A program made the translations under genes and the position numbers. 38,640 nucleotides of DNA. Origin: a virus. This document shows, piece after piece, positions 24,505-26,289 of this stretch. The stretch covers positions 1 through 38,640 of the IMG/VR virus record IMGVR_UViG_3300031576_000172. One strand, written 5' to 3'. The notes beneath the pieces were generated by a model, which did no database searches, was not told the origin of the DNA, and was given only the letters and a program-made list of their open reading frames with translations. Within the stretch, counting starts at the first letter, position 1, and the number at the start of each line of letters is the position of its first letter.

Positions 24505-25578
24505 TTACGTGACGGCGTGCTCGATCCTGACCATGAAGGCTTCGTTCAGGATCTTGGCGATGTAATGCGCCTTCCACCCGATCGTACCCCGTTGATTCAG
24601 GGGATCGGTGGTTCCGCCCGTGCCGAGCGCCTTGATGATAGCACCGCCGTTCTGGCTGTTTCCGAGGTCGATGTCACCGTAGGCGTTGGCTCCAAGGATC
24701 AGGGTCGCATACACATCGATCCCGGAGTCGCCCTCTCCGGTGAAAACCCTGGTGTTCGTGCTCTCGACAAACCGGACAACGTCCAGCTTCCCGACTTCGC
24801 CGGGCAGCACCTGACCGACGTTCTGCGCGTAGCTTTCGATCGCACTCCATCCGGTCAGCCCCTTCAAGTCGTAGGTCGTCCGGGGATGGACGATGCCGAC
24901 GAAGGAGGCGTTGATCGGGATGGTGCCGATGTTCGGGCTTCCGCCTGCGATCTCGGTGATCCGCATGGCGTTGGCGACCGACAGGGTCCGGACCGCTTCC
25001 AGAATCTCGGCCGCCACCATCTTCATGGAGGACGTCACCGTGACGCGGCTCGCGGCGCTCGATGCGTACTGCACCGTGGTACCGGCCACCAGGATGTTGC
25101 GTCCCAAGATGTCGATCGTGTCACCTTCGTTGTCGCCCAGGATCTCGGTGAACTCGGTGAGGATCGCGTCTGGTGTTTCGAGTTGCACGAGGTCCGACCA
25201 GCGGGTCCAGTTGCCATACTGCAGGGCTGTGGCCGTGATCTCGGTCGTCGCCATGCTGGCACCGATCGGCGTGACGCCCTCGGTCAGCGCCGTGGTGGCG
25301 GCGGTAAGGTTCGAGTATCGGCGAAACTTGATGACGTTCGTCCCACCACCGAGTGGGATCGATCGCTTCTGTCCGAAGAGTCCGTGCAGGAATCTCGGGA
25401 TCGCCCGCGTCAGGAGGACGCGGTCGTAAAAGTTGTTGACTTCCCTGGGGATGTCGGCCCGATAGCTGTCAGGAGCCGCCAGGCCGAAGGGAAAGAAGAA
25501 CTGGGTCGTTTTAGTGACGTGGACAATTGCCGCGAGGCAAGCCATCACCAACAGAAACATGAGAACGGTCGAGATCAT
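24505..25578 (-). CDS. Major capsid protein, N4-gp56 family (HK97 fold)
   Basis: A 357-aa protein. Residues from ~45 match the N4-gp56 capsid pattern: PREVNNFYDRVLLTRAIPRF, FGQKRSIPLGGG, IKFRRYSNLTAATTALTEGV, ALQYGNWTRWSDLVQLETPD, GRNILVAGTTVQYA. It forms the icosahedral shell. The first ~33 residues are unlike the family: MISTVLMFLLVMACLAAIVH is a continuous hydrophobic segment that predicts a membrane helix or signal anchor. The start is supported by AAGGAG four bases before the ATG, and no later in-frame start occurs before the capsid homology. The scaffold gene just upstream also begins with such a segment. Confidence 0.9.
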   Translation of the reverse strand: MISTVLMFLLVMACLAAIVHVTKTTQFFFPFGLAAPDSYRADIPREVNNFYDRVLLTRAIPRFLHGLFGQKRSIPLGGGTNVIKFRRYSNLTAATTALTEGVTPIGASMATTEITATALQYGNWTRWSDLVQLETPDAILTEFTEILGDNEGDTIDILGRNILVAGTTVQYASSAASRVTVTSSMKMVAAEILEAVRTLSVANAMRITEIAGGSPNIGTIPINASFVGIVHPRTTYDLKGLTGWSAIESYAQNVGQVLPGEVGKLDVVRFVESTNTRVFTGEGDSGIDVYATLILGANAYGDIDLGNSQNGGAIIKALGTGGTTDPLNQRGTIGWKAHYIAKILNEAFMVRIEHAVT

Positions 25579-25593
25579 GGTGCTCCTTCGGGG

Positions 25594-26289
25594 TTAGTTT
25601 TTCTGTGGGACTGTTTCGCCCCGTTTGACCGCCGCCTTTACTTTTTCAAACTCTTGCGAGCTCATCGCGGTGTAGTCGATCGGCTTGGCCGGACCGGACT
25701 TCGGCGGGAGATGGCCGTCCTTCAGCGGAACCTGAAGCGTTGAGGCGATCTTCTCGAGCGCGGTCAGCGGGATCGTGGAGTACTCCTCGTCCCACTTGTC
25801 ACCGAGCGCGGTCTTGATCTGCTCGCGTCGCTTCTTTTCGTATTCGGTCCACTGGTTGGCTCGGGCTTCGGCGGCCAGCAGCTTCTGTTCCGCTTCGGCT
25901 TTTTGTGCTTTCAGCCGATCGGTTTCAGAGAGCTCCGCATCTTTCCGGTCCTTCTCAGCCTTATCCAAGATCGCCAGTTTCTCCTCGAGTTTTTTCTTCT
26001 CCTCGAGGGCGGCTTTCTTCTGATCGTTCACCTGTTTGAATCGGTCATACGGGACAGGATCCTTTTTTTCCTCTTCCTCAGCTGCCGCTTTATCGGCAGC
26101 CAGTTTGTCCGCCGCAGCTTTATCGGCGGCTGCTTTATCGGCAGCAGCCTTGTCAGCAGTTGAGACTTCCAAACCGAAGGGAAGGACCCGGAATCGTTTC
26201 ATCCAGTAGTACGCCAGCTGGAAGGCGATGGCCAGTAGGATGACTTCCCAGGGGAAATCGACCGGCTTCATCATGAGAAGCGTGAGCAT
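25594..26289 (-). CDS. Scaffold protein with N-terminal membrane segment
   Basis: A 231-aa protein from ATG 26287-26289 (AGGAG five bases upstream; an ATG five codons earlier is weaker). Position immediately before the capsid gene, high charge and long coiled coil (~residues 60-160, rich in K, E, A) are those of phage scaffolds. Five DKAAA-type pentapeptides occur at ~45-70. A hydrophobic segment at ~12-30 (WEVILLAIAFQLAYYWM) predicts membrane insertion, which scaffolds do not need. The C-terminal third is the likely capsid-binding end. Confidence 0.75.
   Translation of the reverse strand: MLTLLMMKPVDFPWEVILLAIAFQLAYYWMKRFRVLPFGLEVSTADKAAADKAAADKAAADKLAADKAAAEEEEKKDPVPYDRFKQVNDQKKAALEEKKKLEEKLAILDKAEKDRKDAELSETDRLKAQKAEAEQKLLAAEARANQWTEYEKKRREQIKTALGDKWDEEYSTIPLTALEKIASTLQVPLKDGHLPPKSGPAKPIDYTAMSSQEFEKVKAAVKRGETVPQKN
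26080..26154 (-). repeat. Five 15-bp tandem repeats (DKAAA)
   Basis: Five in-frame 15-bp units in the scaffold gene encode DKAAA, DKAAA, DKAAA, DKLAA, DKAAA. Codons differ between units, so the repeat is conserved as protein rather than as identical DNA. It forms a charged helix linking the membrane segment to the scaffold coiled coil. Confidence 0.85.

Follow-up and report, generated by a model that had tools for sequence, protein, structure and literature searches.

The major capsid protein encoded in the window, the 38,640-base virus record that we analysed at its full length, belongs to a known capsid family (N4-gp56) and carries an unusual added N-terminal part. This leader of 33-34 residues, about 20 of which are very hydrophobic, precedes a normal capsid core, recurs in three of the five members of a single clade of related phages and meets the core at a motif common to all three. 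Judged from its sequence, the extension is most naturally read as a signal-anchor or leader, and we infer from these features that it may insert into a membrane, support head assembly there and be cleaved.

The capsid gene (24505..25578, minus strand; 357 aa) is part of a minus-strand late region that resembles those of siphoviruses. Its product scored 263.5 bits with the N4-gp56 model TIGR04387, whose threshold for family membership is 60 bits; capsid residues 41-355 aligned with model positions 4-323 of 324, leaving about 37 residues ahead of the pattern. Matches to PHROG 1357 (phrog_1357; E 5e-64) and PF25209 (30.1 bits) gave the same assignment. When we searched with an AlphaFold2 model of the protein (mean pLDDT 80; 63 sequences in the alignment), the 17 best Foldseek matches in the PDB by E-value were the capsids of N4, B2, Moo19 and DEV, at E 3e-16 or better. 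As modelled, the core (residues 41-355) is an ordinary N4-gp56 capsid with the N4-type HK97 fold. The window capsid resembles other members of the family in these residues and in predicted fold, but differs from them in its 33-34 extra N-terminal residues, which include a transmembrane-like stretch, and in the loss of the usual start codon. The original prediction had raised internal-membrane phages as a precedent; a reading of the PRD1/PM2 type is unsupported because the capsid has the modelled N4/HK97 fold instead of the double jelly-roll of those phages.

The same prediction had placed about 20 hydrophobic residues at the capsid N-terminus outside the N4-gp56 pattern, and this proved correct, the TIGR04387 match starting only at residue 41. 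The hydrophobic segment (residues 1-20; 25519..25578, minus strand) reaches transmembrane strength on all three scales applied: residues 1-19 (MISTVLMFLLVMACLAAIV) have a mean Kyte-Doolittle value of 2.72 and an octanol-scale value of -10.2 kcal, and the Hessa score of the leader is about -4. The chance of a Kyte-Doolittle value of 2.7 in a random 34-residue piece of the phage's composition is about 2e-5. In the AlphaFold2 model, residues 3-16 form a helix standing apart from the fold, and most of the stretch 14-40 lacks structure; such a predicted detached helix and disordered linker would suit an anchor. The stretch has a hydrophobic core and no K/R ahead of it. A lipobox (VMAC) was considered and rejected: the match is close, but the Cys lies at position 14 and there is no K/R near the N-terminus.

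For comparison we collected 123 distinct capsid proteins whose sequences include the N-terminal region, using four IMG/VR scans for related capsids, one DNA-pattern scan and one bacterial-genome scan. The usual ATG position (M-[AP]xTTRTxIPxEVNNFYDR) is found in 118 of them; three of the others have a leader, one is cut by a contig end and one (L297) is unclassified. This distribution bears on the view that the leader is a start-site or assembly artefact and that the true capsid begins after residue 33, where those 118 relatives start. Homologues beginning at that point had been named in advance as grounds for dismissing the extension, and 118/123 literally do so, but we read the leader as a clade-specific addition and not as a wrong start. 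Around the point of the window capsid gene at which homologues usually start, none of the frames offers an ATG, GTG or TTG, while the ATG at 25578 is preceded by a strong Shine-Dalgarno sequence (AAGGAG, 25583..25588, minus strand; 4 nt spacing) and follows the scaffold stop by 15 nt. In addition, leader residues 1-34 carry a coding signal, with a codon log-odds of 0.243 in the reading frame versus -0.267 and -0.185 in the other frames, comparable to the 0.289 of the capsid core in frame, and the same layout occurs in two other contigs. An artefact is thereby refuted in practice, and the capsid leader is genuine. Internal starts (ATG 7; TTG/GTG/ATG 10-12) were rejected as they have no Shine-Dalgarno sequence and still lie inside the hydrophobic stretch. 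A frameshift or a fusion to the scaffold gene was also dismissed, because upstream of the ATG the capsid frame stays open for just five codons.

Similar N-terminal extensions, which the original prediction had proposed to seek among N4-gp56 relatives, were found in L020 (IMGVR_UViG_3300047201_000108) and L203 (IMGVR_UViG_3300022562_001082). The capsid of L020 begins MRRSLFKECIISFWKPLAFLTAIIFFALIQPAYSLGAIAFGLTDRSAIPAEVNN... behind the Shine-Dalgarno sequence TAAGGAG; that of L203 begins MKNFLDSKFFAYAKKALSFLSIAISVCFGIPVAFGIVTRANIPYEINN... behind AAAGG, with its start about 15 nt past its scaffold. Both are 54-55% identical to the window capsid over the whole alignment (about 54-58% for all pairs among the three phages), and because the leader recurs in two further phages as divergent as these, it is not a one-off error. 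All three leader bearers have lost the usual capsid start codon, and all three fall in one five-member clade with support of 100/100, the leaderless members of which are L021/L104 and L117/L213. No leader-bearing capsid was found among five phage-record relatives (H1, H21, H24, H26 and H33), in prophage-type relatives from genome contigs or among the matches from about 780 genomes belonging to two bacterial phyla. A single origin of the leader was not accepted as a result of the tree: the best tree keeps the three leader bearers apart, although a constraint grouping them was not rejected (p-AU 0.10).

Two further arrangements ahead of capsid genes were seen in this set. In L067/L250, L080 and L082, a hydrophobic, in-frame and open 5' leader (e.g. 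VVVCFFCYTVYIIYLVKGFN) precedes a normal capsid start with its own Shine-Dalgarno sequence, and might specify a longer isoform or represent raw material for capsid leaders. In L180, L304 and L311 (a Verrucomicrobiota MAG), the capsid gene of this family is split, and a LAGLIDADG-like ORF (MKKQDNQREATLYAYVAGIIDGEGTIRIGK) immediately precedes the second of its two parts, a layout that possibly reflects an intron or intein; LAGLIDADG-like ORFs also lie ahead of the capsid match in L140 and L105.

The leaders of the window phage, L020 and L203 differ greatly in sequence. This dissimilarity and the patchy presence in the clade would be expected if an upstream start had simply captured hydrophobic 5' sequence, producing a leader of little function that is tolerated or trimmed, and the in-frame 5' leaders of L067/L250, L080 and L082 illustrate a possible source. 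We nevertheless regard such a capture as distinctly unlikely, since none of the three phages retains the ordinary start, each has a ribosome-binding site for the replacement start and the motif [AP]FG[LI] is common to all of them, and since so hydrophobic an end on a highly expressed protein should be costly.

This motif lies between leader and core in all three leader-bearing capsids, at the point where ordinary relatives begin. It reads PFGL in the window capsid (residues 30-33; 25480..25491, minus strand), and the junctions AFG/LTDRSAIPAEV in L020 and AFG/IVTRANIPYEI in L203 can be set against M-ALTDRTAIPVEV in L060. When linkers were shuffled, the motif appeared in all three in 0/50,000 trials; it was picked after being seen, and we thus treat it as a lead. 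The leaders of L020 and L203 resemble cleavable Sec signal peptides in layout: a basic n-region and a hydrophobic core precede AFG, which fits the -3/-1 rule, with A at -3 and G at -1. The PFG of the window capsid has P at -3 and does not fit the rule; since there is also no basic residue before the stretch, cleavage of this leader by host signal peptidase at the FG site appears unlikely. The signal-anchor reading put forward originally is therefore borne out in part: the Sec-like layout and the AFG of L020 and L203 agree with it, but the predicted orientation differs between the phages and no prohead protease was recognised. In the window, this last search covered the scanned proteins, and several genes of the head module are without assignment.

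Directly upstream of the capsid gene, with a gap of 15 nt, lies a gene for a scaffold-like protein of 231 aa (25594..26289, minus strand). Its real start is the ATG at 26289, preceded by AGGAG (26295..26299) with 5 nt spacing; a longer ORF starting at 26304 has no such support. The original prediction, which implied this start, was right that both genes have Shine-Dalgarno sites. The product has no match in Pfam, PHROG or NCBIfam and shares 26-28% aligned identity with the scaffolds of the clade, but its position next to the capsid gene and its long, charged, predicted coiled coil (helix 81-165) are features of scaffolding proteins. In a structure model built on four sequences (pLDDT 68), a helix at residues 14-33 is followed by a break at PFGL, the DKAAA repeats in a helix at 45-75 (26080..26154, minus strand) and the long helix 81-165, so that the DKAAA helix claimed after the hydrophobic one is reproduced. 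The hydrophobic helix itself (residues 13-33, PWEVILLAIAFQLAYYWMKRF; 26191..26253, minus strand) was only partly upheld as membrane-like: the octanol scale rates it as strong (-10.1 kcal), the Kyte-Doolittle (1.46; chance 0.018) and Hessa scales as borderline.

No comparable segment was found in 84 other upstream genes surveyed or in a further set of upstream genes, and the scaffolds of all four clade relatives have no such helix. Across the genes compared, the hydrophobic helix of the scaffold is specific to the window phage. The capsid and scaffold leaders are therefore not a conserved pair: that both proteins share hydrophobic ends, as originally noted, is true of the window phage, but in its relatives the capsid leader alone recurs. 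The scaffold linker carries the same four residues as the capsid linker (PFGL, residues 37-40; 26170..26181, minus strand), a coincidence with a chance of 0.005 within linkers and 0.04 anywhere in the N-termini. A DNA duplication between the two 5' ends was rejected as its source, the best match of 12/13 bases being equalled in 38/1000 shuffles. Elsewhere in the head module, between a MuF-like gene and a 169-aa gene upstream of the scaffold, we observed a gene (26924-27097, minus strand) with a strong Shine-Dalgarno sequence, whose product of 57 aa probably has two transmembrane segments (GAGGAGGAGG).

We tentatively favour, at somewhat less than even chances, a model in which the capsid leader targets the membrane, head assembly begins on the inner membrane with the scaffold co-anchored, and a cut at the FG motif frees the head. 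The hydrophobic leader would take the new capsid chain to the host inner membrane, and the scaffold of the window phage would use its own N-terminal anchor, concentrating both proteins where prohead assembly starts. A flexible linker with [AP]FG[LI] would connect leader and core; a cut at the FG motif would yield almost the N-terminus of ordinary N4-gp56 capsids and free the finished head. The real start with its coding signal, the confinement of the leader to one fully supported clade, and the second hydrophobic helix and PFGL linker of the scaffold are in support of this model. Against it stand the two leaderless clade members, because of which the leader is not essential to the family, the restriction of the scaffold helix to the window phage and the lack of a recognised prohead protease among the proteins scanned. 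A simple anchor is further weakened because the predicted topology differs among the three phages: from charge, the capsid core is placed on the cytoplasmic side in the window phage and on the outer side in L020 and L203.

These inconsistent orientations would be of no consequence if the N-termini never entered a membrane, and a non-membrane hydrophobic assembly helix is a serious explanation and the main rival to a membrane leader. The capsid and scaffold helices would then pack together inside the prohead, like a built-in, short delta domain, until maturation removes them by cleavage or expulsion. Hydrophobic ends and PFGL linkers on two proteins that interact would fit such a matched pair, and an N-terminal arm (residues 1-46) is present in the capsids of N4 and DEV, extending to adjacent subunits in N4. 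The HK97 and T5 capsid proteins likewise carry N-terminal scaffolding domains (PMC3185693). The capsid leader, however, is more hydrophobic than packing would require (Kyte-Doolittle 2.72, Hessa about -4), capture by SRP would be expected, and L020 and L203 have no scaffold helix with which to pair; we consider the packing helix somewhat unlikely.

A true Sec signal would lead further than membrane-tethered assembly, to export of the capsid and some tail proteins and a virion of which part is processed at the inner membrane or past it. L020 and L203 have leaders laid out as cleavable signal peptides, and three other large proteins of the window (all minus strand) have N-termini resembling Sec-type signal peptides: a fibre-like protein of 862 aa (12607-15195) that follows a Gp77-like adaptor, a 249-aa protein (11850-12599) and a PelZ/pectate-lyase-like protein (10186-11865). 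A signal peptide on a probable tail fibre is odd, and no counterpart of the 862-aa protein was found in 20 related records. The PelZ-like protein, however, may be a secreted enzyme and not part of the virion, the terminase packages DNA in the cytoplasm, and the window capsid leader has no basic n-region. Moreover, signal-peptide-like N-termini on proteins of at least 200 aa are rare in the parts of eleven related records surveyed by simple gene calling, which missed the window capsid gene and retained a longer ORF on the opposite strand. A signal-peptide habit general to the clade was rejected, as the L020 contig has none apart from the capsid. Taken together, these points make export very unlikely. 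Separately, the ORF at 9093-9764 (minus strand) contains a holin-like segment and after it, without a change of frame, a second stretch resembling a signal peptide (MKSFLAPILIGCALGAAGYSSPASAQ); the arrangement suggests a gene fusion or a pair of overlapping genes.

Finally, we compared the favoured scheme of membrane-tethered assembly with known systems. Capsids with HK97/T5-type pro-regions are accompanied by a phage protease. Those pro-regions are longer than the window leader, which is short and hydrophobic and comes with no recognised protease; the likeness is that of an N-terminal capsid extension, such as the delta domain or other cleaved pro-regions, possibly acting in assembly alone. 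The delta domains of HK97 and T5 are predicted as helix-loop-helix scaffolding motifs (PMC3185693). The coat protein pVIII of filamentous phages forms a transmembrane helix (PMC3185693), and its pre-coat form likewise has a cleavable leader when synthesised at the inner membrane, but pVIII is small, spans the membrane and belongs to an ssDNA phage that is extruded, whereas the window capsid is that of a tailed phage with the predicted HK97 fold. The T4 prohead assembles on the E. coli inner membrane (PMC4493910, PMC3185693), and T4 (gp20 with gp40 and YidC) resembles the proposed scheme in the site of head assembly and in later release. Its gp20 has no recognisable transmembrane segments (PMC4493910), and its membrane contact consists of portal and chaperone, whereas in the window phage the capsid and scaffold would themselves carry anchors; we do not claim homology. 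Among the open-access papers searched, none described a transmembrane leader on the capsid protein of a tailed phage.

The broader proposal, that a clade of N4-gp56 tailed phages assembles its heads on the inner membrane through capsid leaders, with a scaffold anchor in one lineage and release at the FG motif, is doubtful as a whole; if true, heads would be assembled in a membrane-tethered way that has not been described for tailed phages. The site at which head assembly starts is known for few tailed-phage systems, the membrane link of T4 being the portal and its chaperone, and a capsid with its own membrane leader would offer a direct test case for the need for a membrane in head assembly. 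It would also mean that a hydrophobic pro-region that can be removed is compatible with an HK97-fold capsid, a point of relevance to the evolution of capsid pro-domains.
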